33,719 nt of DNA from Streptomycetaceae bacterium MP113-05. GTDB taxonomy: Bacteria > Actinomycetota > Actinomycetes > Streptomycetales > Streptomycetaceae. The notes under the pieces were generated by a model. That model saw only the letters and a program-made list of their open reading frames with translations, did not search any database and was not told the DNA's origin. Numbering within the stretch: position 1 is the stretch's first letter; the number at the start of each line of letters is the position of its first letter. The DNA lies in contig KI547048.1 in NCBI GenBank assembly GCA_000497405.1, positions 24,709 through 58,427 on the forward strand, given 5' to 3'. Positions 4,181 through 33,719 of the stretch are shown here, piece after piece. The position numbers were made by a program, and so were the translations under genes.

Positions 4181-5974
4181 GTGCAGAAACGGGAGGACGA
4201 GGAACCAGGGAAGGACGTCCGGGGGGCCGGGCCGGGAGCCGATCATTCCCCCCGCGGGCCGCGTACGGACAAGGTGGTCTTCGGCGTCAGCGCGGCCCTG
4301 ACTCTGGCGTTCGTGCTGTGGGGCGGCCTCTCCAGAGACACGCTCGCCGACGTGTCGAGCACCCTGCTCGACATCGTCATCCACAACGGCGGCTGGGCCT
4401 TCGTGCTGGCCGCCTCCGGTTTTGTCGTCTTCGCGCTGTGGCTGGCGTTCAGCCGCTACGGAAGGATCACTCTCGGCAAGGAAGGGGAGGAGCCGGAATT
4501 CCGTACCGTCTCCTGGATCGCGATGATGTTCAGCGCCGGCATGGGCATCGGCCTGATGTTCTACGGCGTGAACGAGCCCCTGACGCACTTCGTCGACCCG
4601 CCGCCCGGCAACGATCCGGCGGACGCCGGGGCGGCCATGGCCGACGCCATGGCGACCACGCTGTTCCACTGGACCCTGCACCCCTGGGCGATCTACGCGG
4701 TGGTCGGCCTGGCCATCGCCTACAGCGCGTTCCGCCGCGACCGCCGCCAGACCATCAGCGCCACCTTCACACCGCTCATCGGGGAGAAGGCGGCGAACGG
4801 GGCCCCCGGCCGGGTCATCGACATCCTGGCGATCATCGCCACCCTCTTCGGGTCCGCCGCTTCGCTGGGCCTGGGCGCCCTGCAGATCGGCAGCGGCGTG
4901 CAGGAACTGAACTGGATGACCACCGTGGGGACCGGCGTCCTGGTCGCGATCATCGCGTTCCTGACCCTGTGCTTCGTGGTCTCCGCCGTCTCCGGAGTGG
5001 AGAAGGGCATCCAGTGGTTGTCCAACACCAACATGGTGCTGGCCGCCCTGCTGGTGCTGTTCGTCTTCGTGGCCGGACCGACGGTGCTCCAGCTGGACCT
5101 CATCCCGACGTCGATCGGCGCCTACTTCGCGGACCTGCCGGAGATGGCGGCCCGCACGGAGGCCAGTGCCGGTCAGGACGTCGCCCCCTGGTTGTCGAGC
5201 TGGACGGTCTTCTACTGGGCCTGGTGGATCTCCTGGACGCCGTTCGTCGGCATGTTCATCGCCCGTATCAGCCGGGGGCGGACCATCCGCCAGTTCATCG
5301 GTGGCGTGATTCTCGTGCCCAGCGTGGTCAGCCTGCTGTGGTTCGCCATCCTGGGCGGCACCGGCATGCGGCTCCAGGAGAACGGGGCCGGCATCGCCGG
5401 CGAGTCGACACCCGAGGGGCAGCTCTTCGCCGTACTGGGGGAGTTCCCGATCGTCGGTGCGACCAGCCTCGTGGTCATGATTCTCGTCGGCATCTTCTTC
5501 GTGTCGGGTGCGGACGCGGCGTCCATCGTCATGGGCACGCTCTCGCAGCAGGGCACGCTGGAGCCGAACCGGGCCGTCGTCATCTTCTGGGGCACCCTGA
5601 CCGGTGCCGTCGCGGCGATCATGCTGTTGATCGGAGAGGGGGGTACGACCGCTCTGGACGGTCTGCAGAACCTGACGATCCTCGCCGCTGTGCCGTTCAC
5701 CGTGGTGATGATCGGATTGTGCTGCGCCCTGACGAAGGACCTGCGCAGCGACGCCTTGATCCGGCGCAGCGAACGGGGTGAGGAAGCTGTCGAGCTCGCG
5801 GTCATCACGGGTGCCGAGCAGTACGACGGTGATTTCGAGCTGCGCATCGGCCCTGCCGAGGACGTCGACATGGACGAGGTGCGGCGCCGGGCGGACAGCA
5901 GCCATCTGGCCGATGTCGAGGCGGAACACCGTGACCGGGGCGCTGCGCAGGAGAACCTGCCGACCCGGGAGTGA
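4181..5974 (+). CDS. BCCT-family betaine/choline/carnitine transporter
   Basis: A 597-aa integral membrane protein starting at GTG 4181. The BCCT family imports quaternary ammonium solutes such as glycine betaine, driven by Na+ or H+. Visible signatures: FSAGMGIGLMFYGVNEPL in the unwound transport helix, HWTLHPWAIY, and the diagnostic WWISWTPFVGMFIARISRGR near residue 350. About twelve hydrophobic segments can be counted. The N-terminal 30 residues are charged and polar. The C-terminal 80 residues form an acidic and Arg-rich cytoplasmic tail, the kind of region that senses osmotic stress in some BCCT members. A homologous transporter follows after 155 bp. Substrate cannot be fixed from sequence; osmoprotectant uptake is the likely role. 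The start has only a weak AAAGGTCGG site. Confidence 0.92.
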   Translation: MQKREDEEPGKDVRGAGPGADHSPRGPRTDKVVFGVSAALTLAFVLWGGLSRDTLADVSSTLLDIVIHNGGWAFVLAASGFVVFALWLAFSRYGRITLGKEGEEPEFRTVSWIAMMFSAGMGIGLMFYGVNEPLTHFVDPPPGNDPADAGAAMADAMATTLFHWTLHPWAIYAVVGLAIAYSAFRRDRRQTISATFTPLIGEKAANGAPGRVIDILAIIATLFGSAASLGLGALQIGSGVQELNWMTTVGTGVLVAIIAFLTLCFVVSAVSGVEKGIQWLSNTNMVLAALLVLFVFVAGPTVLQLDLIPTSIGAYFADLPEMAARTEASAGQDVAPWLSSWTVFYWAWWISWTPFVGMFIARISRGRTIRQFIGGVILVPSVVSLLWFAILGGTGMRLQENGAGIAGESTPEGQLFAVLGEFPIVGATSLVVMILVGIFFVSGADAASIVMGTLSQQGTLEPNRAVVIFWGTLTGAVAAIMLLIGEGGTTALDGLQNLTILAAVPFTVVMIGLCCALTKDLRSDALIRRSERGEEAVELAVITGAEQYDGDFELRIGPAEDVDMDEVRRRADSSHLADVEAEHRDRGAAQENLPTRE

Positions 5975-6062
5975 TGAGGCGGAGCCGGTCCTTCCGCGGC
6001 ACGCGTCGTGATGTTCGATATGTTTTCGTGACGTGTGTTTCCGGTCGTTCTGGGGAGGTGAT

Positions 6063-6099
6063 CCGCCCGCAGGCCGACGTCGTCCCGGCCTGCGGGCGG
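6063..6099 (+). terminator. Strong hairpin between the BCCT genes
   Basis: A perfect 13-bp inverted repeat (CCGCCCGCAGGCC and its complement) surrounds an 11-nt loop and is followed by TTT. It lies 88 bp after the first BCCT stop and 30 bp before the second BCCT start. It is probably a factor-independent terminator for the first gene, or an attenuator for the second if the promoter lies upstream of it. Confidence 0.6.
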
Positions 6100-6129
6100 T
6101 TTCTGACCCGACGACCGAAGGATGAGCGC

Positions 6130-7854
6130 GTGTCTTCGCATACGACAGAGAAAGTACCGAAAAGAGAAGACGGTCCGGAAGTAGGAAAACCCAAGCCGGC
6201 TGGGAACGCGGCGTCCATAGCCCCGAAGGTCTTCTGGCCGTCAGCCGCGGTGATTCTCGGATTCGTCCTCTTCGCCGTCATCGGCCAGAAGACGGCCGCG
6301 GACGCGGTGGCCACGGTGCAGAGCGAGGTCATCGGCGGCCTGAGCTGGTTCTACATGGCTCTGGTGTCGCTGTTCGTGATCTTCTGCCTGTGGGTCGGCA
6401 TCGGCCGCTACGGTGACATCAAGCTCGGCAAGGACGGGGAGCGGCCCGAATTCTCCCTGGTCTCGTGGCTGGCGATGCTCTTCGCCGCCGGCATGGGCAT
6501 CGGCCTGGTGTTCTGGGGTGTCGCCGAGCCGCTGAACTTCTTCGACGCCCCGCGGCCCGGAACCGGTTCGTCCGACGCCGCCAAGTCCGAGTTCGCGATG
6601 GTGCAGACGTTCCTGCACTGGGGCATCCACCCCTGGGCGATCTACGTGGTCGTCGGCCTCGCCGTCGCCTACTCGGTGCACCGCAAGGGCCGCCCGGTGT
6701 CCATCCGCTGGGCACTGGAGCCGGTGTTCGGTGACCGGATCAAGGGCGCCTGGGGCGACGTGATCGACTCGGTGGCCGTCATCGGCACGCTCTTCGGCGT
6801 GGCGACCTCGCTCGGCTTCGGTGTGATGCAGGTCGCCAGCGGCATGGACTTCCTGGGCTGGGTGGACGACGGGAGCAGCAAGGGCCTGCTGGTCGTCCTG
6901 ATCGTCTGCATCACCGGTATCGCGACGCTGTCCGTGGTGACGGGCATCGGCAAGGGCATCAAGTGGCTCTCCAACGCCAACATGGGCCTCGCCGCCCTGA
7001 TCATGCTGTTCGTGCTGATCGCCGGCCCGACCCTGTACCTCGCCAACAGCCTCGTGCAGGACACCGGCGGCTACCTCCAGAACGTCCTGTCGCTCAGCTT
7101 CGACACCGGGGCGTCCTACGGCGAGGAGGGCACCAGCTGGGTCAACGCTTGGACCGTCTTCTACTGGGGCTGGTGGATCTCCTGGGCGCCGTTCGTCGGC
7201 ATCTTCATCGCCCGCATCTCCCGCGGCCGTACCGTCCGCGAGTTCGTCTGCGGCGTACTCCTGGTCCCGACACTGCTGACCTTCGTGTGGTTCTCCATCT
7301 TCGGTGGCACCGCGGTGTTCCAGCAGGCGAACGGCAAGCACGACTACATCGGCGAAGCGGGTGTGAGCACCAACAACGCCCTGTTCGAGATGCTGGACAC
7401 GCTGCCGGGCGGCACCTTCGTCGCCGGAGTGGCGATCCTGCTGATCGTGCTGTTCTTCGTCACCTCGTCCGACTCCGGTTCGTACGTGGTGGACATGCTG
7501 GCATCCGGCGGTGACCCCAACCCGCCGGTCTGGAGCCGGGTGTTCTGGGCCCTGACCGAGGGCGCCGTGGCCATCGCGCTGCTGCTGGCCTCCGGCAGCG
7601 GCGGAACGGCCTCGCTGGACACGCTGAAGACGGTGGCGATCCTCGTCGCACTGCCCTTCAGCTTCGTGATGATCGGTATGTGCTGGGCGACGCTGCGGTC
7701 GTTCCGCCAGGAGCGGGAGGCCTACCTGGCCGCCAAGCTCCAGCGCCAGCAGGACAGGATGGTCGACGAGGCGGTGGCCGCTCTCGAGGAGAGCCTCGAG
7801 AACGGCACGCTCAACTCCGACGGCACCACGAACGTGTCCACGACGAAGCGCTGA
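6130..7854 (+). CDS. BCCT-family betaine/choline/carnitine transporter
   Basis: A 574-aa transporter of the same family as its upstream neighbour. The GTG at 6130 has a GAAGGA site 7 nt upstream; the frame extends further 5' but through the hairpin region. Motifs include FAAGMGIGLVFWGVAEPL, HWGIHPWAIYVVVG and WWISWAPFVGIFIARISRGR. The N-terminal 40 residues are Lys/Glu-rich and hydrophilic. The C-terminal 60 residues contain a long charged helix (QEREAYLAAKLQRQQDRM) different from the tail of the first transporter, so the two paralogues may respond to different signals. The two genes lie in the same direction, but the hairpin between them argues for separate transcription. Substrate specificity is not determined. 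Confidence 0.93.
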   Translation: MSSHTTEKVPKREDGPEVGKPKPAGNAASIAPKVFWPSAAVILGFVLFAVIGQKTAADAVATVQSEVIGGLSWFYMALVSLFVIFCLWVGIGRYGDIKLGKDGERPEFSLVSWLAMLFAAGMGIGLVFWGVAEPLNFFDAPRPGTGSSDAAKSEFAMVQTFLHWGIHPWAIYVVVGLAVAYSVHRKGRPVSIRWALEPVFGDRIKGAWGDVIDSVAVIGTLFGVATSLGFGVMQVASGMDFLGWVDDGSSKGLLVVLIVCITGIATLSVVTGIGKGIKWLSNANMGLAALIMLFVLIAGPTLYLANSLVQDTGGYLQNVLSLSFDTGASYGEEGTSWVNAWTVFYWGWWISWAPFVGIFIARISRGRTVREFVCGVLLVPTLLTFVWFSIFGGTAVFQQANGKHDYIGEAGVSTNNALFEMLDTLPGGTFVAGVAILLIVLFFVTSSDSGSYVVDMLASGGDPNPPVWSRVFWALTEGAVAIALLLASGSGGTASLDTLKTVAILVALPFSFVMIGMCWATLRSFRQEREAYLAAKLQRQQDRMVDEAVAALEESLENGTLNSDGTTNVSTTKR

Positions 7855-16575: not shown

Positions 16576-16641
16576 GCAGGGTGCCCCCTGGGTGCGGTGA
16601 AAGTAAGGACACCAGCGTAACGGCGGCGGGACCGCATGCTC

Positions 16642-16647
16642 GATACT
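16642..16647 (+). promoter_or_regulatory. Possible -10 element for leaderless mqnL
   Basis: GATACT lies six bases before the ATG at 16654, and no convincing ribosome site is present. This spacing is what a leaderless transcript would show. No clear -35 hexamer is seen. Confidence 0.3.
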
Positions 16648-16653
16648 GAGTCC

Positions 16654-18105
16654 ATGGCTTACGACGATCTCCGCTCGCTGCTGCGGGCGCTGGAACGTGA
16701 AGGCGACCTCGTACGTGTCAAAGCGGAGGTCGATCCGTACCTGGAGGTCGGTGAGATCGTCGACCGGGTGCAGAAGTCCGGCGGCCCCGCACTGCTCTTC
16801 GAGAAGGTCAAGGGCTCCTCGATGCCGTTGGCGATGAACGTGTACGGCACCGACCGGCGGCTGCTCAAGGCGCTCGGTCTGGCGTCCTACACGGAGATCA
16901 GCGAGAAGATCGGCGGTCTGCTGAAGCCGGAGCTGCCGCAGGGCTTCGTCGGGATGCGGGAGGCGTTCGGCAAGCTCGGTGCGATGGCGCACGTGCCGCC
17001 GAAGAAGGTGCGCGGCGGTCCCGTCCGGGACGTGGTGCTGCGCGGTGACGACGTGGACCTCGATGCGCTCCCCGCGCTGTTCACCTGGCCGGAGGACGGG
17101 GGGTCGTTCTTCAACCTCGGCCTCACCCATACGAAGGACCCCGGGACCGGCGTACGCAACCTCGGTCTCTACCGGCTCCAGCGGCACGACAAGCGCACCA
17201 TCGGCATGCACTGGCAGATCCACAAGGACAGCCGCAACCACTACCAGGTCGCCGCCCGGCGCGGCGAGCGGCTGCCCGTCGCCATCGCCTTCGGGTGCCC
17301 GCCCGCCGTCACCTACGCCTCCACCGCGCCGCTGCCCGCCGACATCGACGAGTACCTCTTCGCCGGCTTCGTACAGGGCAAGAGGGTCGAGATGGTCGAC
17401 TGCGAGACGGTGCCCCTCCAGGTCCCGGCCGACGCGGAGGTCGTCATCGAGGGGTGGCTGGAACCGGGCGAGACGCTGCCGGAGGGCCCGTTCGGCGACC
17501 ACACCGGCTTCTACACGCCGCAGGAGCCCTTCCCGGCGCTCACGATCGACTGTGTGACGATGCGCAAGAAGCCCGTCCTGCAGTCGATCGTGGTCGGCCG
17601 GCCGCCGACCGAGGACGGGCCGCTGGGCCGGGCCACGGAGCGGTTCTTCCTGCCACTGCTGAAGGTGATCGTCCCGGACATCGTCGACTACCACCTCCCC
17701 GAGGCGGGCGGCTTCCACAACTGCGCCATCGTCTCCATCGACAAGCGCTACCCCAAGCACGCGCAGAAGGTGATGTCGGCGATCTGGGGCGCCCACATGA
17801 TGTCGCTGACCAAGCTGATCGTGGTCGTCGACTCCGACTGTGACGTGCACGATCTGCACGAGGTCGCCTGGCGTGCCCTGGGCAACACCGACTACGCCCG
17901 TGACCTCAGTGTCGTCGACGGCCCCGTCGACCACCTCGACCACGCCTCCTACCAGCAGTTCTGGGGCGGCAAGGCAGGCATCGACGCCACCGCCAAATGG
18001 CCCGAGGAGGGCTACACCAGGGACGGCGGCTGGCCGCACATGGTGGTCTCCGACCCCGGGACGGCCTTGCTGGTCGACCGCCGCTGGAAGGAGTACGGGC
18101 TGTGA
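16654..18105 (+). CDS. mqnL: UbiD-family decarboxylase of menaquinone synthesis
   Basis: A 483-aa UbiD-family (de)carboxylase, which uses prenylated FMN made by UbiX. Motifs include GMHWQIHKDSRNHY, the ExPFGDHTGFYT segment (residues 275-288) and VVDSDCDVHD. In Streptomyces coelicolor the linked UbiD, UbiA and UbiX homologues (SCO4490-4492, from memory) act late in the futalosine pathway: prenylation and decarboxylation of the 1,4-dihydroxy-6-naphthoate skeleton. ATG 16654 gives MAYDDLRSLL, the normal N-terminus; a further ATG lies 18 bp upstream. It overlaps the prenyltransferase gene by 4 bp. Confidence 0.93.
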   Translation: MAYDDLRSLLRALEREGDLVRVKAEVDPYLEVGEIVDRVQKSGGPALLFEKVKGSSMPLAMNVYGTDRRLLKALGLASYTEISEKIGGLLKPELPQGFVGMREAFGKLGAMAHVPPKKVRGGPVRDVVLRGDDVDLDALPALFTWPEDGGSFFNLGLTHTKDPGTGVRNLGLYRLQRHDKRTIGMHWQIHKDSRNHYQVAARRGERLPVAIAFGCPPAVTYASTAPLPADIDEYLFAGFVQGKRVEMVDCETVPLQVPADAEVVIEGWLEPGETLPEGPFGDHTGFYTPQEPFPALTIDCVTMRKKPVLQSIVVGRPPTEDGPLGRATERFFLPLLKVIVPDIVDYHLPEAGGFHNCAIVSIDKRYPKHAQKVMSAIWGAHMMSLTKLIVVVDSDCDVHDLHEVAWRALGNTDYARDLSVVDGPVDHLDHASYQQFWGGKAGIDATAKWPEEGYTRDGGWPHMVVSDPGTALLVDRRWKEYGL

Positions 18106-19170: not shown

Positions 19171-20532
19171 CTGTCCGAACAGTGTGCCATCACGCGTACC
19201 GTCACGGTGGCCGGAGGCCGGTTTGCGCCCGGTCATCTCGGTGAACTCACTCAGCTGGTGCCGTTCGAGATGGTTGATGCGGCGTTGAGTGCGACCAGGG
19301 CCGTGCAGTCGCGGCTGCGGGATCTGCCATCCCGGGTCGTGGTGTACCTGGTCCTGGCCGGGTGCTTGTTCCCGGAGACGGGCTACCTCGGTGTGTGGCG
19401 CAAGCTCACCGGGGCGCTGGCCGGTCTGCCGGTGGTATCGCCGTCGGCGAGTGCGCTGGCTCAGGCCCGCCGCCGTGTCGGCGGCAAGCCGCTGCGGTGG
19501 CTGTTCGACCTGCTGCGGGGCCCGGCCGCGACCGGGCACGGGCAGGGGGTCCGCTGGCACGGTCTGCTGGTGGCCGCGCTGGACGGCACCATCCTGACGG
19601 TCCCCGACACCCCCGCCGTCATGACCCGGTTCACCAAGCAGGCCGGCAACCACGGCGGGACCGGATACCCGCAGGTCCGTCTGCTCGCCCTGGTCGCCTG
19701 CGGCACCCGCACCGTCATCGACGCGGTGTTCGGCCCCGCCACCTCAGGCGAGACCACCTACGCCCCGCGTCTGCTGCCCAGCCTGCGGCCCGGGATGATC
19801 CTGCTGGCCGACCGCAACTTCGGCGCTCAAAACCTCGTGTCCGGCATCGCGGCCACCGGAGCCGAGGTCCTGGTCCGGCTCAAGAACGGCCGCCGCCTGC
19901 CCGTCCTGGCCCGCTACCGGGACGGCTCCTATCTCTCGGCGCTGGGCGGCCTGCGGGTCCGCGTCATCGACTGCGAGATCACCGTCACCACCACCGCCGG
20001 GAAACACACCGGCCTCTACCGGCTGGCCACCACTCTGCTCGACCACCACCGTCACCCGGCGGCCGAACTGACCACGCTGTATCACCAGCGCTGGGAGATC
20101 GAAACGGCCTACCTGGAACTGAAGTCGACCATCCTGGGCGGCCGGGTCCTGCGGGCCCGCACTCCCGAAGGCATCGACCAGGAGATCTACGCCCTGCTGA
20201 TCGTCTACCAACTGCTACGGACCGCCATGACGGACGCCACCAGCACCCTATGCGGCACTGGTCACGACCGCGCCAGCTTCAGCATCGCGTGGCAGACCGC
20301 CCGCGACCAGGTCATCCAGGCCGCGGGCGTCATCGCCGACACCGTCATCGATCTCGTTGGCACCATCGGCCGGCACGTCCTGGCCGACCTGCTGCCCCAG
20401 CGGCGGCTACGCGTCAGCCCCCGCATCGTCAAACGCGCCATCTCCAAGTACCAAGCCCGCGGCCCCCGCATCGACCGGGCCAGCTACAAGGCCACCACCA
20501 GCATCAACATCGTCACAGCTGCAGGCCCTTGA
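19171..20532 (+). CDS. IS4-family transposase
   Basis: A DDE transposase of 453 aa if started at CTG 19171, or 441 aa from GTG 19207. I prefer CTG because a perfect GGAGG lies 5 nt upstream and none precedes the GTG; the extra residues are LSEQCAITRTVT. Catalytic residues, numbered from the CTG: Asp138 in AALDGTIL, Asp214 in LLADRNFG, and Glu311 within the IS4 signature Y-x2-R-x3-E-x6-K (YHQRWEIETAYLELK). The N-terminal region HLGELTQLVPFEMVDAAL is typical of streptomycete IS4 transposases. No frameshift is seen, so it is probably active. Confidence 0.93.
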   Translation: MSEQCAITRTVTVAGGRFAPGHLGELTQLVPFEMVDAALSATRAVQSRLRDLPSRVVVYLVLAGCLFPETGYLGVWRKLTGALAGLPVVSPSASALAQARRRVGGKPLRWLFDLLRGPAATGHGQGVRWHGLLVAALDGTILTVPDTPAVMTRFTKQAGNHGGTGYPQVRLLALVACGTRTVIDAVFGPATSGETTYAPRLLPSLRPGMILLADRNFGAQNLVSGIAATGAEVLVRLKNGRRLPVLARYRDGSYLSALGGLRVRVIDCEITVTTTAGKHTGLYRLATTLLDHHRHPAAELTTLYHQRWEIETAYLELKSTILGGRVLRARTPEGIDQEIYALLIVYQLLRTAMTDATSTLCGTGHDRASFSIAWQTARDQVIQAAGVIADTVIDLVGTIGRHVLADLLPQRRLRVSPRIVKRAISKYQARGPRIDRASYKATTSINIVTAAGP

Positions 20533-25971: not shown

Positions 25972-26085
25972 AGCGGCGGCCGGACCTCTCCGGCACCCCG
26001 TCCCCCCTGGCGCTCCTCCGCGCCCGGCGCGAGCCTGTCTCAGCGCCCTTCCGCCTCCCCCTTCTTTCCTCCCCGGAGTGTGTCC

Positions 26086-27414
26086 GTGTCCTCTGACGTG
26101 CAGTCGACCGAACCGAAGCAGTGGCGAGCCCGCATACCCCACGTGCCGTTCTGGGCGCAGATCCTCGCCGGCCTGGTGTGCGGCGTCCTGCTCGGCTGGC
26201 TCGCCCGGAGCGGCGACGTGTCCTGGCTCGGTACGGGTCTCGCCAAGATCGGCGAAACGTTTGTGCAGCTGTTGAAGCTGGCCGTTGCCCCCCTGGTGTT
26301 CTTCGCGATCGTGATCTCCATCACCAATCTGCGGAAGGTCTCCAACGCGGCCCGGCTGGCCAGCCGCACCCTGTTGTGGTTCATGATCACCTCGTTGATC
26401 GCGGTGGCCATCGGCCTCACCATCGCCCTGCTGACGAATCCCGGCGCCGGCACCGGCCTGACCGCGAACGACGGTGCGGAGCCGGAGTCCGCCGGCTCCT
26501 GGCTCGACTTCCTCACCGGGATCGTCCCGACCGACGTCGTCACACCGTTCACCGAACTCAACGTCCTCCAGATCGTCTTCATGGCCGCCGTCGTCGGCGT
26601 CGCGGCGCTGAAGCTCGGCCCGAAGGCCGAACCACTCCTCGAGATCGGCGAGTCGGTGCTGTCCCTACTGCAGAAGGCGCTCTGGTGGGTCATCCGGCTG
26701 GCCCCGATCGGCTCCCTCGGCCTCATCGGCACTGCCATCAAGGACTACGGCTGGGACCTCATCGGCCAGTACGCCACGTTCACCGCCGACGTGTACGTCG
26801 GCTGCGCGCTCGTGATCTTCGGCGTCTACCCGATGCTGCTGGCCTTCGCCGCCAAGGTGAACCCGGTGCAGTTCTTCCGCGGCGCCTGGCCCGCGATCCA
26901 GCTGGCCTTCGTGTCCCGCTCCTCGGTCGGCACCATGCCGCTGACCCAGAAGGTCACCGAGCGGCTGGGCGTGCCGAAGGAGTACACCTCGTTCGCGGTG
27001 CCCTTCGGCGCCACCACCAAGATGGACGGCTGCGCCTCGATCTATCCTGCGATCGCGGCCGTCTTCGTGGCGCAGATCTTCGGCATGGACCTGGGTGTCG
27101 GCGACTACCTGCTCATCGTGTTCGTCTCGGTCGTCGGCTCCGCTGCGACGGCCGGACTGACCGGGGCCACCGTCATGCTGACCCTCACCCTGTCCACGCT
27201 GGGTCTGCCGCTTGCCGGGGTGGGCCTGCTGCTGGCCGTCGACCCGATCCTCGACATGATGCGCACGGCCACCAACGTGGCGGGTCAGTCGGCGGCCACG
27301 GTGATCGTCGCCGCCCGGGAGGGCATTCTGGACCGCGACGCGTACGACCGTGCGGTGAGCGTGGACCTGGAGGCCTTCGACCTGGAGCCAGACGCCGTGC
27401 GGACGGCTGCCTGA
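26086..27414 (+). CDS. DAACS-family (dicarboxylate/amino acid:cation) symporter
   Basis: A 442-aa symporter of the glutamate/dicarboxylate/cystine family. Signatures: the serine-rich hairpin segment AFVSRSSVGTMPLT, the TKMDGCASIYPA motif in place of the NMDGT of glutamate transporters, and the substrate helix VDPILDMMRTATNVAGQ. The GC-A-x-IYPA part resembles, from memory, that of TcyP-type cystine symporters. GTG 26086 has CGGAG 7 nt upstream; a GTG two codons earlier is too close. The leader peptide before it suggests control by cysteine, so a sulfur amino acid is the favoured substrate, though glutamate or dicarboxylate is not excluded. Confidence 0.9.
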   Translation: MSSDVQSTEPKQWRARIPHVPFWAQILAGLVCGVLLGWLARSGDVSWLGTGLAKIGETFVQLLKLAVAPLVFFAIVISITNLRKVSNAARLASRTLLWFMITSLIAVAIGLTIALLTNPGAGTGLTANDGAEPESAGSWLDFLTGIVPTDVVTPFTELNVLQIVFMAAVVGVAALKLGPKAEPLLEIGESVLSLLQKALWWVIRLAPIGSLGLIGTAIKDYGWDLIGQYATFTADVYVGCALVIFGVYPMLLAFAAKVNPVQFFRGAWPAIQLAFVSRSSVGTMPLTQKVTERLGVPKEYTSFAVPFGATTKMDGCASIYPAIAAVFVAQIFGMDLGVGDYLLIVFVSVVGSAATAGLTGATVMLTLTLSTLGLPLAGVGLLLAVDPILDMMRTATNVAGQSAATVIVAAREGILDRDAYDRAVSVDLEAFDLEPDAVRTAA

Positions 27415-27425
27415 AGGCCCCGGCA

Positions 27426-27467
27426 CGCCGAAGGCGCCGGTCCCGCACGGGACCGGCGCCTGCGGCG
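27426..27467. terminator. Bidirectional terminator between converging genes
   Basis: GGCGCCGGTCCC (27433-27444) and its exact complement (27449-27460) close a 4-nt loop; an outer CGCCG/CGGCG stem extends it. It sits between the symporter and the last gene of the minus-strand operon. Confidence 0.8.
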
Positions 27468-27487: not shown

Positions 27488-29026
27488 TCAGACCCCGAGG
27501 CGCTTCTTGACCTCGGCGAAGAACGGGATGTGCCGGTAGTCGCCGGCCTCGTCGTCGTAGTCGGTGTACCCGTTGGTGAAGGCGAGCAGCCCGGCCCGGA
27601 CGTCGGCGACGGGCTCGTCGTGGATGCGCCGCTCCACGGCCTGGATCTCTCCGAGGAACTGTGTCAGCACGCCCGGCAGTTCCGGGCGAAGGCTGATCCT
27701 TCCGTCGCTCAGCGTGATGCCGCCGTGCCGGGAGAGATAGTTGAACAGGAGCTGGGAGGCGACGGCGTCGTAGTTGGGGCGTGGTATGCCCTCGACGGCG
27801 TAGCGCAGCAGCCTCTCCGCGAGGATGTACTCGTATGCGGCACGGGCCTCGTCGGCAGGCAGTTCCCCGTCGTTGAGGCAGACCAGCATGGAGGAGACGT
27901 CCACCCGGAGCTCCTCCAGCCCGGCCAGCGGCTTGAGTTTCTTGGCGTGCAGGAAGTCGGGTATCGGCATGTCCCCCTGGCGGTGGTGGAACTCGTGCAG
28001 CCGTACCCACCAGGAGGAGGCGCCCTCGATGGTGTCGTCGTCCGCGCCCTGGATGAGCGGGAAGCTGCCCGGAGCCATCACCTCGTCGATCATCGTGCGG
28101 GTGATGCGGTTGTGGCGTTCGACGAACTTGTCGACGAAGTAGAAGATCAGGTCGTCGGGGTCCTGACGGCCGTCCAGGTGGTTCTCCGGGAAGAGCGCCA
28201 CGACGACCCGGGAGCGGAACCCCTCGGAACAGGCCGTGATGTTCACCGGCATGGTGTTGCTGGCGTACCGCTCGGCGAGGTGCGGATTGGTCGGGAGCGT
28301 GGAGTAGGACAGGAAGTCCAGCGAAAGCCGGGGGAAGTAGGAGGCGTCGAAGAGGGAGAACAGGTTCTGGTCCCGCCGGGTGTTGATGTGCTCCTTCGTC
28401 CGGAGCAGGCGGTGGTCGTCCTGGTAGTCCCGCAGGTCGGCGATGAGCGCCCGGGCCGCCGGTTCGTGCCGGACGTGCTCGGATCTCTCGAGCTTGTCCA
28501 GCAGGTCGGCCAGGAACTCCGGGCTGCGGGGATCCGCCTTCTTCTCGAGCGTCGCGCGGATCTCGTTGACCTCGTCGATGACGTTCTTGATGCCGGCGGA
28601 CATGCCTTCATCCCCTGTTCGAGTGGTCGGATGGTTCTGCCGCTTCCAGTACTCGAGCCCCCCGATCATCTCCTTGACCCGGAGCCCGGCCGCCGCGAGG
28701 GCCGCGGCGGCGCTGGTACCCGCGTTGCAGCCGGGTCCCCAGCCGAAGGTGACGTACAGCGGTTCCGGATCGAGTCCGGCGCAGACCGCGGCGGTCAGGG
28801 CGTCATGCGGCAGGCTCAGGGCGCCGGGGAGGGTCTCCTCCCGGTGATCCGGCTCCTTGCGGGCATCGGCCAGGACGATGCCGGAGACGCCGGCGGACAT
28901 GTCGTGGTACACGTCGTACGGGTCGGTCTCGCACGCCAGCCGGATTCCGTGGAAGTAGTCGTGCGCGGCCCGGGGACCGGCAGCCGGAACGGCGAGCACC
29001 CGGGAGGGGCCGGAGCTCGCCGTCAC
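27488..29026 (-). CDS. Rhodanese-DUF6421 fusion, possible metallohydrolase
   Basis: One frame of 512 codons. Residues 20-130 form a rhodanese-like domain with the loop FGWGPGCNAGTSAA (Cys100) and KEMIGGLEYWKRQ. After a short linker, Met142 begins a 371-residue domain resembling DUF6421. It contains HEFHH (HExxH, residues 344-348) and, 23 residues after the last histidine, EELRVD (371-376). HExxH with a later EExRxD is a zinc-site pattern of gluzincins, notably the DPP III (M49) family; a peptidase-like role is inference. GTG 29026 overlaps the Nudix stop (GTGA). The internal ATG 28603, with GGGG 8 nt upstream, could start a separate DUF6421 protein. It is the last gene of the operon. Confidence 0.8.
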   Translation of the reverse strand: MTASSGPSRVLAVPAAGPRAAHDYFHGIRLACETDPYDVYHDMSAGVSGIVLADARKEPDHREETLPGALSLPHDALTAAVCAGLDPEPLYVTFGWGPGCNAGTSAAAALAAAGLRVKEMIGGLEYWKRQNHPTTRTGDEGMSAGIKNVIDEVNEIRATLEKKADPRSPEFLADLLDKLERSEHVRHEPAARALIADLRDYQDDHRLLRTKEHINTRRDQNLFSLFDASYFPRLSLDFLSYSTLPTNPHLAERYASNTMPVNITACSEGFRSRVVVALFPENHLDGRQDPDDLIFYFVDKFVERHNRITRTMIDEVMAPGSFPLIQGADDDTIEGASSWWVRLHEFHHRQGDMPIPDFLHAKKLKPLAGLEELRVDVSSMLVCLNDGELPADEARAAYEYILAERLLRYAVEGIPRPNYDAVASQLLFNYLSRHGGITLSDGRISLRPELPGVLTQFLGEIQAVERRIHDEPVADVRAGLLAFTNGYTDYDDEAGDYRHIPFFAEVKKRLGV

Positions 29027-29922
29027 GGGGTGTTCTCCGCGATCCAGCTCTCGATGAGGAGCTTGCCGATGGAGTCCTGGCGGTACCCGTGCCCGGCTTC
29101 GATGTGGGACCGGAGTCCGGCCGCGGTGAACCAGCGCGCCTCCTTGAGCTCCACGCCGTCGACCGCCGTCTCGCGGGACGACGCCCTCGCCCGGAAGCCG
29201 ACCATCAGACCGGCCGGGAACGGCCACGCCTGCGAGCCCTGGTAGACGACCTCGTCGGCGCGGACCCCGGCCTCCTCCATCACCTCGCGGCGGACGGCGT
29301 CCTCCAGGTTCTCCCCGACCTCCACGAACCCCGCGAGAGTGCTGAAGGCGCCCGCTCCGGCTCCGGCGTGCCGGGCCAGCAGGCAGCGGGCGGGGTCCCC
29401 GGGGTGCTCCACGAGCACGATGACGGCCGGCTCGATCCTGGGGAACAGCAGCTTTCCGCAGCCGCCGCACGTCCGCAGGTGCCCGCCGTCGCGTTGGACG
29501 GCCGCCTCCCCGCAGGCCCCGCAGTAACGCTGGTTGCGGTGCCAGTGCAGCAGCCCCCGGGCGTACGCCAGCAGGCTCGCCCCCTCGACCGTCAGGGAGG
29601 GCACCAGCCGTCGTACGTCCTCCATGGCGTCGCCGGCCGCCGTGGCCAGGGCTTCGGCCTCGGTGAGGGGGGACAGGTCGGCGGTGAAGACGGCACGGCC
29701 GTCCTCGAGCCCGAGGAGTACGGGTTCGCCCTCGACGGAGTCCAGCACGCTGCGGGCCGGGACGTCCGCCTGGTGGCCGACCACCTTTCCGTCACGCAGC
29801 AGGCACTTGTCGCGCCACAGCGGGATCACCCTGCTGTCGGGCCGTGCCTCGAGTTCGGCGATCCAGCCGGCGTCGGTGCGGCGGTCGGCCGCGCGGTCCA
29901 GGTGGAGTCCTGTGTAGTGCAT
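29023..29922 (-). CDS. NudC-like Nudix hydrolase (NAD diphosphatase type)
   Basis: A 299-aa protein with the three-part NudC layout: an N-terminal domain (1-125), a zinc ribbon with Cys134, Cys137, Cys152 and Cys155, and a Nudix domain with a complete Nudix box at 198-220 (GFVEVGENLEDAVRREVMEE). The SQPWPFPxS-type motif that marks NAD(H) diphosphatases is present as SQAWPFPAGLM (230-240). The family splits NAD(H) into NMN(H) and AMP, and some members remove NAD caps from RNA. ATG 29922 has AAGAGG upstream; 11 bp separate it from the preceding gene and 4 bp overlap the next. Its place in a ligase operon suggests a dedicated substrate. Confidence 0.93.
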   Translation of the reverse strand: MHYTGLHLDRAADRRTDAGWIAELEARPDSRVIPLWRDKCLLRDGKVVGHQADVPARSVLDSVEGEPVLLGLEDGRAVFTADLSPLTEAEALATAAGDAMEDVRRLVPSLTVEGASLLAYARGLLHWHRNQRYCGACGEAAVQRDGGHLRTCGGCGKLLFPRIEPAVIVLVEHPGDPARCLLARHAGAGAGAFSTLAGFVEVGENLEDAVRREVMEEAGVRADEVVYQGSQAWPFPAGLMVGFRARASSRETAVDGVELKEARWFTAAGLRSHIEAGHGYRQDSIGKLLIESWIAENTP

Positions 29923-29933
29923 GGCGTTTCCTC

Positions 29934-30248
29934 TTACTTTTCGGCGCGTGGGGAGAGCGCGGTTCCGAGAGAGGCGTACGCGGTCGCCATGTCGGCCGGG
30001 CAGTCCTCGAGGGAGTCCGCGACGGAATCCCACACCACTCGAGCCGCCCGGACGAGCATGCGGTCCTTCGGCGGCGTCAGGTAGTACTGGAACACGAGCA
30101 TTTCGAGGGGCGCCGCAACAGCGTGGAGCACGTGGTCCGGCATCTCGAGCAGCCAGTCGTCGTAGCGCGGAGACTCGGCGATGCTCCGTACGGCGCGGCG
30201 TACGGCTGCCACGTCGACGTCGTCCCGCCGGTTGGTGACGCTCCTCAC
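29934..30248 (-). CDS. Small protein of unknown function in the ATP-grasp operon
   Basis: A 104-aa protein that I do not recognise. GTG 30248 overlaps the stop of the ATP-grasp gene (GTGA). It looks all-helical and soluble: VDVAAVRRAVRSIAES, YDDWLLEMPDHVLHAVAAPL, MLVFQYYLTPPKDRMLVRAA and VVWDSVADSLEDCPADMATA. There are no metal-binding clusters, signal peptide or membrane helix. It could be an accessory or carrier-like partner, but it lacks a clear phosphopantetheine DSL site and a precursor-peptide layout. Tight coupling suggests it acts with the second ATP-grasp enzyme. Confidence 0.75.
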   Translation of the reverse strand: MRSVTNRRDDVDVAAVRRAVRSIAESPRYDDWLLEMPDHVLHAVAAPLEMLVFQYYLTPPKDRMLVRAARVVWDSVADSLEDCPADMATAYASLGTALSPRAEK

Positions 30249-31501
30249 CCTTCGTCCGTGTAGCGAATCGGCCGGTAGCCCGCGAGGCGTTCGAAGTCAC
30301 GGTACAGAACCTCGTAGTCCCGGTTGCGCACCAGGAACGTGCCGCCGTTGTCGATGAGCGAGGCGCCCTGCGCGATCTCTTCGCCGTCGTGCACCTTCCA
30401 CTTCATCTCGACTTCGCTTTCCACGTCCGGGGCGACGAGTTCGGCGACGATGCCGGGGCGCTTGGGTATCACGCCGTCGAAGCAGTACACCTGTTCGCCG
30501 TCCCACGGACGGCTCTCCAGGCCCGCCTCGATGTCGAAGGCGAGGTTGAGCAGCGCGACGGAGTAGTTCTCCTGCATCGCGGCGAGTCCGGCCAGCCCCT
30601 TGAACCGGGCGCCGACTTCGAGGAACACCAGTTCGTCGTCCTTGGTGTGGAACAACTCCAGGTGGCTGGCACCGTCCAGAGTGCCGAGGGCATCGAGTGC
30701 GGTCTCGGCGAATTCGATCATCCGCGGCACACGGGGGTCGGAGTCGATGAGGTTGATGTCGGCGTTCACCTTGCCCTGCTGCACCTCCGTCGAGTTGACG
30801 AGGTATTCGGTGACGCCGCCGAACACGGTCTTCCCGTCCCGGGTGACCAGGTTGACGCTGAACATCGTGCCTTCGATGTGCTCTTCGTACTCGTAGTCGC
30901 GGCCGAGGTCGCCGGGCAGGGCGTGGAAGTCGTCCTCGGAGAAGACCTTGTACACGCCGTCGGCCGAGGCCGCGTCCACCGGCTTGAGAACGAAGGGCAG
31001 GCCCACGGCGGCGACGATGCCCTTCAGCACGTCCGCACGGTCCGCGGAGAACGCCGCCCGGTCGAAGCGGCCGAACTTCGGCACCCGCAGCCGGCTGCCC
31101 ACGAGTTCCTTCATCAGGCACTTGTCGCGGTACGGCAGCACCTGGGCCTGCGTGGGACCGGGCAGGCCGAACTCCTCGCGCAGTGCGGCGGTCAGCAGCA
31201 GGTTCCGCTCGTCGAAGCTGTGCAGGGTGAGCGTGTCACCTTCGGCCGTCGCGTTCGCCAGGTCCCGTACGACCGCCCGGGCGGCCTCCGGGTCGACGAT
31301 CGAGGACTCCGTGTAGGAGGGGTCGGTCAGCCCGCAGGGAACGGTGTGGACGGCGTGGAAGTAGTTCCGCTCGGCGTCCGAGACGTTCGCGCTGTCCTGC
31401 TCGGAGAAGATGCCCACGAACCGCACCTCGTCCGGCGCGGTCAGCAGGTCGTGCCGGAACACCCCGAAACCCCGCGTCGAAACGACGACGACTGTCTTCA
31501 C
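30245..31501 (-). CDS. ATP-grasp ligase
   Basis: A 418-aa ATP-grasp enzyme. Such enzymes activate a carboxylate as acyl phosphate and join it to an amine or thiol. Visible: an N-terminal preATP-grasp Rossmann-like part (VVVVSTRGFGVF), the phosphate-binding lysine in LPFVLKPVDAASADGVYKV (near residue 175), YEEHIEGTMFSVNLV, and the metal-binding segment LVFLEVGARFKGLAG (residues 305-319). The usual Asn of E-x-N-x-R is replaced, as in several amino acid ligase-like members. GTG 31501 overlaps the MFS stop by 4 bp. The specific substrates are unknown; dipeptide or amide formation is the general expectation. Confidence 0.9.
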   Translation of the reverse strand: MKTVVVVSTRGFGVFRHDLLTAPDEVRFVGIFSEQDSANVSDAERNYFHAVHTVPCGLTDPSYTESSIVDPEAARAVVRDLANATAEGDTLTLHSFDERNLLLTAALREEFGLPGPTQAQVLPYRDKCLMKELVGSRLRVPKFGRFDRAAFSADRADVLKGIVAAVGLPFVLKPVDAASADGVYKVFSEDDFHALPGDLGRDYEYEEHIEGTMFSVNLVTRDGKTVFGGVTEYLVNSTEVQQGKVNADINLIDSDPRVPRMIEFAETALDALGTLDGASHLELFHTKDDELVFLEVGARFKGLAGLAAMQENYSVALLNLAFDIEAGLESRPWDGEQVYCFDGVIPKRPGIVAELVAPDVESEVEMKWKVHDGEEIAQGASLIDNGGTFLVRNRDYEVLYRDFERLAGYRPIRYTDEG

Positions 31502-32898
31502 GCTTCTGCTCCGTTCTTCGTCATTGCCTTCGGTATGGCTTTCGTGCGGCGCTCCAGTGCCGCCAGCAGCGGCAGCGCGAGCAGGCTCATCCCCATGAGG
31601 AAGAGCATGGGCAGCAGGTCGTTCAGGGCGAGCAGCAGCGTCAGCAGGGCCGGGGCGGCGACCTCGCCCACGGTCCAGGACAACTGGTAGGTGGCCAGGT
31701 AGCGGCCACGGATATGGCTCGGCGCCATCGAGACGCTGAGGGTGTCGGCAGCGGGGAAGGCCAGTACCTCGCCGAACGTGAAGATCACCATGGCCGTGAA
31801 GAGCCCGACGTAGGTGAGCGCGTCGGGCGCCGGGTACAGCGCGATGAAGAGAGCGAACGCGGCGGCGTTGAGCAACGCTCCGAGCATCAGCACGCGGGTC
31901 ATCCGGCTGCGCTCGGCCCGCTTCGCGACCAGGGTCTGGGTGAGCGAGACCTGCACCGCGTTGACGACGATGAGGGTGCCCGCGATCCAGGCGGGCATGT
32001 GGAGCGCTTCGACGATGTAGATCGCCAGCAGCACCTTGATGAGCATCTGCGCGAAGACCATCGTCGCGTTGACGCCGATCAGGAGGACGTAGGGACCGTC
32101 CCTGAGCACCGCGCCGTACCCGGTGCCGGACTTCGTGGCGGTTGCGGCCCCGGCGGCCTCGGCGGATGCGACCGCTTCGACCCCGGCGGGCTCAGCGGGG
32201 GCGGGGCCCTCCTTCTGCGCCGTGGTGCCGGGCCCGTCGGCCTGCTCGGCCTGCCGTTCCGGATGCTGAGCCGGGCGCCAGGTGTACAGCAGGAAGGCGG
32301 CCAGTACGTAGCTGGCGGCGTTCCCGATCACGATCAGGTGCAGGGCGTTTCCCTCACCGAGCGCGAACGCGAACGCGGCGAGTGCGCCGCCGACACCCAT
32401 CGCCGTGTTGCGCAGGGCCATCTTGAAGCCGAACCAGGTGGTGCGGCGATCCTCGGTGGATGCCAGCACCACCAGACCACTGCTGGACGTCCAGTAGGTG
32501 GTGTGGCCGACCTGGACGAGGAAGACCACCACCCCGATCGTCCACACGGAGTCCGCGAGGAGGAATCCGAGGTACCCCACGACGGAGACCAGGTTGCCCC
32601 AGGCCGCCGTCCGTCGGGCGGTGAAGCGGTCGATGAGCGGACCGACGACCATGGACGTGGGCAGCGCGCACAGCCGGGCGGCGGTCATCGCGGCGCCGAT
32701 GGCGGCCAGCGACACCGGGGTCGTCCTGGCGAAGTACACGACGGTGAACGCCAGGATCAGCCCGGTGCCCAGGCTGTCGATGGAACTGGCAGCGACGAAC
32801 TTGCCGTTCCCTTTCAGCGGTGGGATGCCGAGCCGCTGCCAGAGCGGCTCTCGGAGGGTGGTGGTGGTCACTGCTTCGACTCTCTTCGTCGTCGTCAC
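31498..32898 (-). CDS. MFS transporter
   Basis: A 466-aa transporter with about twelve transmembrane segments in two halves, divided by a central loop of roughly 50 residues rich in Glu, Ala and Pro (residues 208-260). The motif LPTSMVVGPLIDRFTARR between helices 2 and 3 corresponds to the MFS motif A (GxLaDRxGRR). Placed between two ATP-grasp genes and overlapping the second, it most likely exports the product of the cluster or provides self-resistance. GTG 32898 or GTG 32871 may be the start; the second has AAGAGAG at a good distance. It begins 38 bp after the first ATP-grasp gene. Confidence 0.9.
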   Translation of the reverse strand: MTTTKRVEAVTTTTLREPLWQRLGIPPLKGNGKFVAASSIDSLGTGLILAFTVVYFARTTPVSLAAIGAAMTAARLCALPTSMVVGPLIDRFTARRTAAWGNLVSVVGYLGFLLADSVWTIGVVVFLVQVGHTTYWTSSSGLVVLASTEDRRTTWFGFKMALRNTAMGVGGALAAFAFALGEGNALHLIVIGNAASYVLAAFLLYTWRPAQHPERQAEQADGPGTTAQKEGPAPAEPAGVEAVASAEAAGAATATKSGTGYGAVLRDGPYVLLIGVNATMVFAQMLIKVLLAIYIVEALHMPAWIAGTLIVVNAVQVSLTQTLVAKRAERSRMTRVLMLGALLNAAAFALFIALYPAPDALTYVGLFTAMVIFTFGEVLAFPAADTLSVSMAPSHIRGRYLATYQLSWTVGEVAAPALLTLLLALNDLLPMLFLMGMSLLALPLLAALERRTKAIPKAMTKNGAEA

Positions 32899-32936
32899 AT
32901 CTTCGTCCCGTGTGCCGTCATCGCGCGTCGTCCGGA

Positions 32937-33719
32937 TCAGGGCGCGGCCGGGCGGGTGACGATGCCGATACGGCCGACGAGTTCGTCGCAGCGCACCTCC
33001 GCCGTCTTGGTGTCCTCCGCGGTGACCAGCACCTGGATGTGACGACCGAAGTTGTCGTCCATCGCGCCGACCACGTCGCCGGGTGCCAGGTGCACCTCGA
33101 CGGCCATCACGTCAGGCTCGGCGCGCACCTCCTCGACGCCTTCGATGCGCTCCACCACTCCCGGGGAGGCGTTCACCCACTTGGTGACGGCGCCCGCCAG
33201 GACCGGAGGCCGTTCGGTCAGTGCCGGGACCTTGCGGCAGGGCCACCCCGAGGCGTACTGCTCCAGATCGACCCCGTGGGTCGTCACCATGATGTCCAGC
33301 AGGCGGTCTCCGGGAGCGCGGTCGTGGCTCTCGATGATCCGTGGCCCCTTGGAGGAGAGCTTGAGTTCGGTGTGACCGATGCCGTCCCGCAGGCCCATCG
33401 CTGTCAGGAAGCCGACGACGTGGTCGACGATGGTGCGCTCCACGTCCTCGGGCAGATCCGCCGGCAGCTTGTGTCCGGTCTCGACGCACCCGACGTGGTA
33501 CTTGTCGGTGATGGAGACCACGATGTGCCGGCCGGCGAAGGAGAAGCTCTCGACGCTGTACTCGGTGCCGTCGATGTACTCCTCGGCGATGTAGGAACCG
33601 ACCGGGTAGAACGTTGCCATCGGCAGGTCCGGCCGGTTCCGCAGGCCTGCCAGACGCTCCCACTCGGAGTCGGCCTCCTCGGGGCGTTCGATGACGGCGA
33701 CGCCCCGGCTGCCGGTACC
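32937..33719 (-). CDS. ATP-grasp ligase (5' end beyond the window)
   Basis: The last 260 residues of an ATP-grasp protein; the frame runs off the right edge. The visible part begins GTGSRGVAVIERPEE, the glycine-rich ATP loop, followed by EEYIDGTEYSVESFSF, and IGHTELKLSSKGPRIIES. The metal site is ESHDRAPGDRLLDIM, a variant of the E-x-N-R-x-GGD motif of L-amino acid ligase-like enzymes. A C-terminal domain of about 90 residues (from ERPPVLAGAV to IVTRPAAP) matches the LAL-type C-terminal region. It is a different subgroup from the second ATP-grasp enzyme of the operon. Substrate unknown. Confidence 0.9.
   Translation of the reverse strand, partial: GTGSRGVAVIERPEEADSEWERLAGLRNRPDLPMATFYPVGSYIAEEYIDGTEYSVESFSFAGRHIVVSITDKYHVGCVETGHKLPADLPEDVERTIVDHVVGFLTAMGLRDGIGHTELKLSSKGPRIIESHDRAPGDRLLDIMVTTHGVDLEQYASGWPCRKVPALTERPPVLAGAVTKWVNASPGVVERIEGVEEVRAEPDVMAVEVHLAPGDVVGAMDDNFGRHIQVLVTAEDTKTAEVRCDELVGRIGIVTRPAAP

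Follow-up and report, generated by a model that had tools for sequence, protein, structure and literature searches.

The DNA analysed here, hereafter the window, is a stretch of 33,719 nucleotides from Streptomycetaceae bacterium MP113-05 (contig KI547048.1, our C12, positions 24709-58427; C12:24709-58427 of a 5.96-Mb genome). Its right-hand part, window 27488-33719, holds six open reading frames on the minus strand, which a preliminary description made from the letters alone had read as a six-gene operon running past the right edge. The reading-frame check recovered all six frames, the 4-bp GTGA overlaps between the major facilitator superfamily (MFS) transporter gene and an ATP-grasp gene, between the latter and the gene of a 104-residue protein, and between the Nudix gene and a rhodanese-DUF6421 gene, and gaps of 38 and 11 bp elsewhere. 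The operon does continue, with five additional minus-strand genes past the right edge encoding an ATP-grasp ligase, a PurD-like protein, a desaturase-like protein, a BesD/HalD-family oxygenase and a methyltransferase. The protein families first listed are supported by Pfam, but six genes with two ligases become 11 genes with four ATP-grasp ligases, one of them PurD-like. Six of the 10 junctions are 4-bp overlaps and the other four are gaps of 11, 38, 49 and 61 bp, with start codons as chosen by the gene caller.

Positions beyond the window are given on the interval L004 (C12:50000-69999), where a position equals the window position minus 25291. All 11 genes lie on the minus strand. Read from the operon's 5′ end, they encode the methyltransferase (first gene, L004:13678-14508), the oxygenase HalD (L004:12825-13616), the desaturase-like protein, predicted to be a diiron enzyme (L004:11666-12775), the PurD-like ligase (L004:10281-11669), and the ATP-grasp ligases AGa (L004:8908-10284) and AGb (L004:7646-8911, the C-terminal part being window 32937..33719; Pfam finds a LAL_C2 domain). 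There follow the MFS transporter and presumed exporter (window 31498..32898, L004:6207-7607; Pfam and NCBIfam), the ATP-grasp ligase AGc (window 30245..31501, L004:4954-6210), the 104-residue protein u104 (window 29934..30248, L004:4643-4957), the NudC-like Nudix hydrolase (window 29023..29922, L004:3732-4631), with its zinc ribbon, Nudix box and SQAWPFP motif, and the rhodanese-DUF6421 fusion (window 27488..29026, L004:2197-3735). Between the operon and a convergent SDF transporter gene (26080-27414, plus strand) a script check located a perfect 12-bp inverted repeat with a 4-nt loop (window 27433..27460), the likely left boundary or terminator of the operon. Upstream, the gene of a divergent TetR-type regulator starts at L004:15488, about 980 bp away. 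The G+C content of the cluster is 69.5%, compared with 69.7% in window 1-26000. The right edge of the window falls at a 10-N scaffold gap (L004:8429-8438) inside the AGb gene, whose frame runs on past the gap, and all cluster frames are otherwise open; AGb is five residues longer at this place than in ten relatives, which makes the gap a probable assembly artefact.

AGa, AGb and AGc exceed the cut-off of the ATP-grasp family PF13535, and the PurD-like protein exceeds that of GARS_A. AGc remotely resembles solved L-amino-acid ligases, and none of the cluster ligases reaches the equivalog cut-offs of BacD (at most 57.9 vs. 850 bits) or DdaF (at most 21.2 vs. 840 bits). The PurD-like protein is homologous to PurD over its whole length and passes TIGR00877 (313 vs. 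288 bits); it is a second copy, the canonical PurD being encoded elsewhere in the genome (457.8 bits). Because its N-terminal motifs read DSTGRGHA and SHIDGL instead of the GNGGREHA and GPEAPL of solved PurDs, its phosphoribosylamine site is probably altered. A canonical DUF6421 protein (738.7 bits) and another NudC-like protein (on C8, 39% identical to the cluster Nudix) are likewise encoded elsewhere in the genome, so that the PurD-like, DUF6421 and Nudix copies in the cluster are, by this comparison, paralogues. Adenylation, condensation and carrier domains were found by Pfam in none of the 11 cluster proteins.

HalD belongs to PF23169 (326 bits vs. a cut-off of 26) without reaching the BesD equivalog (184 vs. 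450 bits), and its closest solved relative is Halogenase B (E = 2e-54). The five aligned chains, all named halogenases, show HWG, the HxG form that leaves room for a halide, whereas HWD, the hydroxylase-type HxD, is found in all 19 HalD sequences from the loci described below. Because HxD replaces HxG throughout, HalD is predicted to be of the hydroxylase type rather than a halogenase, and halogenation was rejected as its activity. Positions that we take to be lysine-ammonium contacts in BesD are kept in HalD. The desaturase-like protein carries an FA_desaturase domain with all three His boxes and is predicted to be a membrane diiron enzyme; its best NCBIfam match is GntB, at 34.5 bits where the cut-off is 380, which makes it a non-member, and a sequence search of the PDB gave no relatives at E 0.1.

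The rhodanese-DUF6421 frame is present as first described. The rhodanese part occupies residues 1 to ~138, and its match to the solved BH2092 proteins 3o3w/3nhv has E = 4e-22; its Pfam score falls just short of the cut-off in the full window protein (20.8 vs. 22.2 bits) and reaches 31.8, 40.8 and 37.7 bits in the orthologues of L035, L018 and L017, respectively. The active-site Cys, within GWGPGCNAGT in the window protein, is present in 17/17 aligned rhodaneses. The DUF6421 domain spans residues ~141-512, and the full protein scores 49.1 bits against a cut-off of 25. DUF6421 is no longer an uncharacterised domain: in the account by Du et al. (PMC12614342), this is the PolE family of Fe/pterin amino-acid oxidases, in which PolE is an Fe/tetrahydrobiopterin (BH4)-dependent Ile 3,4-desaturase with the motif HE/DxxHX(21-23)E. 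The window protein shows HEFHH-X22-E, which is retained in L035 and L036, and its DUF6421 domain matches SmPolE (PDB 9j3g) at E = 1e-198 over SmPolE residues 20-391 and SnPolE at 1e-167. In an alignment read by eye, the DUF6421 protein of L035, a sister cluster, shows no mismatch with 9j3g apart from one tag residue, and SmPolE is therefore taken to be the enzyme of that cluster. For the window domain itself, BH4/Fe-dependent Ile desaturation is predicted. In L035 and L036 the rhodanese and DUF6421 are encoded by separate adjacent genes, while the window genome encodes both in a single open frame that retains the start Met of DUF6421; this fusion may be biological or a sequencing effect.

Of 296 other genomes of the family, 8 hold PolE-type relatives with 64-71% identity, and none of the 8 has other genes of the cluster nearby (E 1e-6, ~9 kb on either side). 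The neighbours, readable in seven, include genes for polyketide synthase (PKS) and halogenase-like proteins, for ornithine N-oxygenase and 2-oxoglutarate (2OG) enzymes, or for DUF6202 (PolF). Because these neighbourhoods differ and lack the other genes of this cluster, DUF6421 is, on present gene contexts, an accessory moving between pathways. At L115:2-11441 and L117:2-11064 the PolE-type gene lies by genes for a fused ornithine N-oxygenase/FMN-binding protein, a WelO5-like 2OG enzyme and a PhyH-family protein (L115 by domain scan, L117 by similarity). At L118:9073-12022 and L119:7182-10377 (the former scanned, the latter by similarity) it stands directly beside DUF6202 (PolF) and a GNAT-like gene, and both are candidate azetidine amino acid loci. 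L113, L114 and L116 have it among very large genes and a tryptophan-halogenase-like gene, with PKS domains in L113, the one scanned of the three, the others being read by similarity. Pfam gave no match to DUF6202 among the 11 cluster proteins, and the polyoxin pathway itself, with its azetidine polyoximic acid, was rejected for want of this partner in the operon. A peptidase role for DUF6421, which its HExxH and EExRxD motifs might suggest by likeness to dipeptidyl peptidase III, was set aside since PolE is shown to be an oxidase in PMC12614342.

Among the remaining proteins, the Nudix hydrolase has three NudC-like Pfam domains and passes the NAD+ diphosphatase equivalog (196 vs. 158 bits). 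The small protein u104 is predicted to be an all-alpha fold of five helices (mean predicted local distance difference test, pLDDT, 86.5), for which neither Pfam nor NCBIfam gives a match and a fold search of the PDB finds none at E 0.001; its orthologues occur in 5/18 other loci, and the six loci including the window genome lie on one side of a well-supported branch. Related clusters also encode an aminotransferase, AT3, and the only one scanned, that of L035, scores as a diaminobutyrate transaminase of subfamily PRK09264 (579 vs. 438 bits). The window genome has a 52% identical AT3 relative at C5:277845, adjoining an ectoine synthase gene.

To delimit the gene set, an AGc profile of 6 rows was searched in the genome_contigs collection and gave 39 loci; the search, built from a pair of short peptide patterns, is non-exhaustive, and it misses the clusters L017 and L018, which come from other genomes. 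In the 16 loci with AGc at least 55% identical, HalD, the desaturase-like protein, the PurD-like protein and AT3 are present in 16/16, AGa in 15/16 and the rhodanese in 14/16. The first four are found in 0/4 loci with AGc of 51-52% identity and in 0/19 with AGc of at most 36%; five of these 23 distant loci are shorter than 20 kb, and three of the 19 are shorter than 15 kb. One distant locus, L072, has a 38% rhodanese match ~9 kb away. Our set of 19 loci consists of the 16 above (L035-L049 and L054), L017, L018 and the window genome (L016, from the same genome as L041, is excluded from the count, and L019/L020 duplicate L051/L052). Here HalD, the desaturase-like protein and the PurD-like protein are found in 19/19, AGa in 18, AT3 in 17 and the rhodanese in 17; the MFS protein is found in 17/19 by similarity and in L047 by Pfam (for L049 the check covered similarity alone). 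Because the core is common to the 19 loci and missing from the 23 distant ones, the cluster is, by gene content, a rare yet coherent gene-cluster family. The preliminary description had suggested a neighbourhood analysis, and the lack of co-conservation that was to count against the operon did not occur.

The 16 loci belong to Streptomyces, Wenjunlia, Catellatospora, Actinoplanes, Actinomadura and a metagenome-assembled genome of Micromonosporaceae. Exactly four of 297 family genomes, the window genome included, carry AGc with at least 60% identity, and these four are also the ones with HalD of at least 67%; nine further ones have HalD-family proteins, all at most 41% identical. In an overlapping sample of 394 genomes of the class, the only HalD match above 60% is in the window genome, and AGc reaches E 1e-60 in two, the second being 53% identical. 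Closest to the window cluster are L035 (Streptomyces sp. ms191), a cluster of 13 genes, and L036 (NK15101); both share 64-81% protein identity with it, and the gene order but for an extra AT3 between AGa and AGb. In 9 of the 18 other loci (L017, L037, L038, L039, L040, L041, L042, L043 and L054) the rhodanese is fused to the C terminus of AGc; HalD is fused to AGa in L041 and L045, and the PurD-like protein to AT3 in L037 and L044. These fusions indicate that the parts of the cluster belong together.

Two further observations concern these loci. A gene for a GPP34 (Golgi phosphoprotein 3-like) protein lies near the end of 9/19, six being checked by Pfam (L017:5659-6201, L038:11954-12550, L039:11841-12407, L042:11705-12286, L043:11650-12273 and L054:11650-12219) and three found by similarity (L035:14278, L036:14149 and L048:2-505). 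In L017, L038 and L039 it is adjoined by a ferredoxin gene, whose product might supply electrons to the desaturase-like enzyme. In the distant loci L050-L053, AGc neighbours a class II aminoacyl-tRNA-synthetase-like protein that contains an editing domain, the HalD core being absent, and AGa is there too in L051 and L052; judged by these genes, this is a second, different pathway type.

AGb (at least 47% identity) and the Nudix gene occur in the same 11 of the 19 loci; AGb-like matches of 26-30% in L017, L042 and L043 were taken for cross-matches to another ATP-grasp and are not counted. Among the 11, three carry a PolE-type gene, four an alanine racemase gene and two a gene for an AsnA-like protein, never two of these together, and all three are absent from the 8 loci without AGb. 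The AsnA-like protein of L049 exceeds an asparagine synthetase A cut-off, and that of L048 shares 74% identity with it. In the tree built from four core proteins, the racemase genes fall in two separate places and the AsnA-like genes likewise. We read the three as an exchangeable amino-acid slot that AGb would serve.

The gene content, co-conservation, fusions and motifs suggest, with moderate confidence, that the 11 genes form a biosynthetic operon whose product is a small peptide built from oxidised amino acids, exported and made independently of nonribosomal peptide synthetases (NRPSs). An amide-linked metabolite outside NRPS logic or the known logic of ribosomally synthesised and post-translationally modified peptides had been suggested from the six genes; the neighbourhood and the lack of NRPS Pfam domains in the 11 proteins favour this direction, and the metabolite itself is one that we infer. 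L-2,4-diaminobutyrate would come from AT3 or, in the window strain, perhaps from ectoine EctB. HalD, as an Fe/2OG enzyme of the hydroxylase type, and the desaturase-like enzyme would oxidise diaminobutyrate or another short basic amino acid, and the PurD-like protein, AGa and AGc would link the oxidised residue to other amino acids via acyl phosphates. AGb may then append a variable residue, here an unsaturated Ile/Val-like one made by the PolE-type domain, and elsewhere D-Ala in racemase clusters or an Asn-type residue in AsnA-like clusters. The methyltransferase would cap the product and the MFS protein export it; the rhodanese would most likely pass sulfur or an acyl thioester into or out of the active site of AGc, and the NudC-like protein may serve in tailoring or in self-protection against a nucleotide adduct. 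It is conceivable, if unlikely, that the rhodanese thiol or persulfide captures the ATP-grasp acyl phosphate to give a thiocarboxylate, and thus a sulfur-containing peptide, or a carrier-like thioester for the next ligase, while the PurD paralogue would act as an additional amide ligase and the variable residue would be set by a modular slot. From the sequences we infer the substrates, the order of ligation, the diaminobutyrate core, export and the roles of the rhodanese, Nudix, methyltransferase and u104, and our confidence in the detailed order of steps is much lower than in the general proposal.

Several points weigh against this proposal. AT3 is missing from the cluster in the window genome and in L018, so that a diaminobutyrate supply is hypothetical here, and the AT3 of L035 lies just under the narrower EctB equivalog cut-off (541.5 vs. 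552.2 bits). AGa is missing in L039 and the rhodanese in L046 and L047; flanks were read to ~10 kb per locus, so that absences may reflect the locus boundaries. Within the family the PolE-type gene is accessory, occurring in 3/19 loci, with its fusion to the rhodanese in the window genome alone. The pattern of AGb with Nudix amounts to 2 changes on the tree, too few to test, and their association is suggestive only. Finally, two AGb loci, L044 and L047, have none of the three slot genes, and no amino-acid-supply enzyme was found among their scanned unknown genes (AAA and SseB domains, a weak extra ATP-grasp and an MFS protein).

The same genes could be arranged into other explanations. A metallophore, as a siderophore-like opine or peptide, would account for the diaminobutyrate-type aminotransferase, the MFS proteins, hydroxylated amino acids and an OCD-family (ornithine-cyclodeaminase-like) protein in L018; however, this last is found in 1/19 loci only, and no receptor, ABC importer, iron reductase or NRPS-independent siderophore synthetase family occurs among the scanned cluster proteins, making such a product unlikely. 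Judging from the PurD-like ligase, the NudC-like Nudix and the rhodanese, the product might instead be a cofactor or a purine-like small molecule, newly made or modified, and no peptide; we consider this still less probable. That the PurD-like and Nudix proteins pass the PurD and NAD+ diphosphatase cut-offs speaks for such a role, but the genome already has its canonical PurD, the Nudix gene is present in just 11/19 loci, the set includes amino-acid-type oxygenases and a transporter, and the spread is sporadic, with AGc at 60% or more in 4/297 family genomes and HalD above 60% in 1/394 class genomes.

The gap in AGb, the missing AT3 and the unusual rhodanese-DUF6421 fusion might instead betray a chance run of genes or a degenerate island with no pathway. 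This is very improbable, being contradicted by co-conservation, by frames open save at the 10-N gap, by motifs conserved across loci, and by the two other strains that keep the genes in order at 64-81% protein identity with only AT3 extra. An anti-phage or other defence system, which a rare and scattered distribution could recall, is extremely hard to credit given the metabolic gene content; PADLOC-DB gave 0/10 matches at E 0.001 (10 of the 11 proteins were scanned, the methyltransferase being left out), and a defence role was rejected.

The family joins Fe/2OG, predicted membrane diiron and, in one branch, Fe/pterin enzymes, all likely to act on amino acids, and it would provide a pathway context for SmPolE, an Fe/pterin enzyme of solved structure. 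A further prediction is a set of peptides that have a core in common and differ in an exchangeable residue. Cluster finders keyed on NRPS domains may overlook such clusters, whose ligases number three or four and which lack an NRPS. The enzyme families are individually known, as are NRPS-independent ATP-grasp peptide pathways. For the gene combination, the conserved PurD paralogue and the recurrent ATP-grasp-rhodanese fusion, no description was found in the open-licence literature, which is weak evidence as most subscription journals lie outside that scope; no paper on the SmPolE/SnPolE structures was found there either, and one may well exist. Elsewhere in the window lie genes for an IS4-type transposase (19207-20532), a UbiD-like protein (16636-18105) and a BCCT transporter (5971-7854).

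Several known systems share parts of this operon. The radical halogenases BesD and HalD (6nie, 7u6i and 7jsd) are of the same Pfam family as the oxygenase here, which has HxD where they have HxG. GntB, the guanitoxin L-arginine gamma-hydroxylase of the FA_desaturase superfamily, is the best NCBIfam match of the desaturase-like protein and shares its His boxes, but the score is far under the cut-off. The PolE of the polyoxin pathway (SmPolE/SnPolE, 9j3g and 9j2e) matches over residues 20-391, and the window domain shares its HExxH-X22-E motif; here, however, the operon has no DUF6202 and the domain is fused to a rhodanese amid ATP-grasp ligases. Housekeeping PurD (glycinamide ribonucleotide synthetase) corresponds to the PurD-like protein in full length and equivalog score, but differs in its N-terminal motifs and in not being the second copy. 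The beta-ethynylserine (bes), bacilysin and dapdiamide pathways are NRPS-independent ATP-grasp dipeptide pathways. The bes cluster has pyridoxal phosphate (PLP)-enzyme and haem-oxygenase-like domains, of which Pfam finds none in the 11 cluster proteins. All three pathways resemble the operon in using ATP-grasp ligases on free modified amino acids together with an exporter, whereas the operon differs in its four ligases including a PurD paralogue, in a rhodanese that is often ligase-fused, and in three classes of iron oxygenase.

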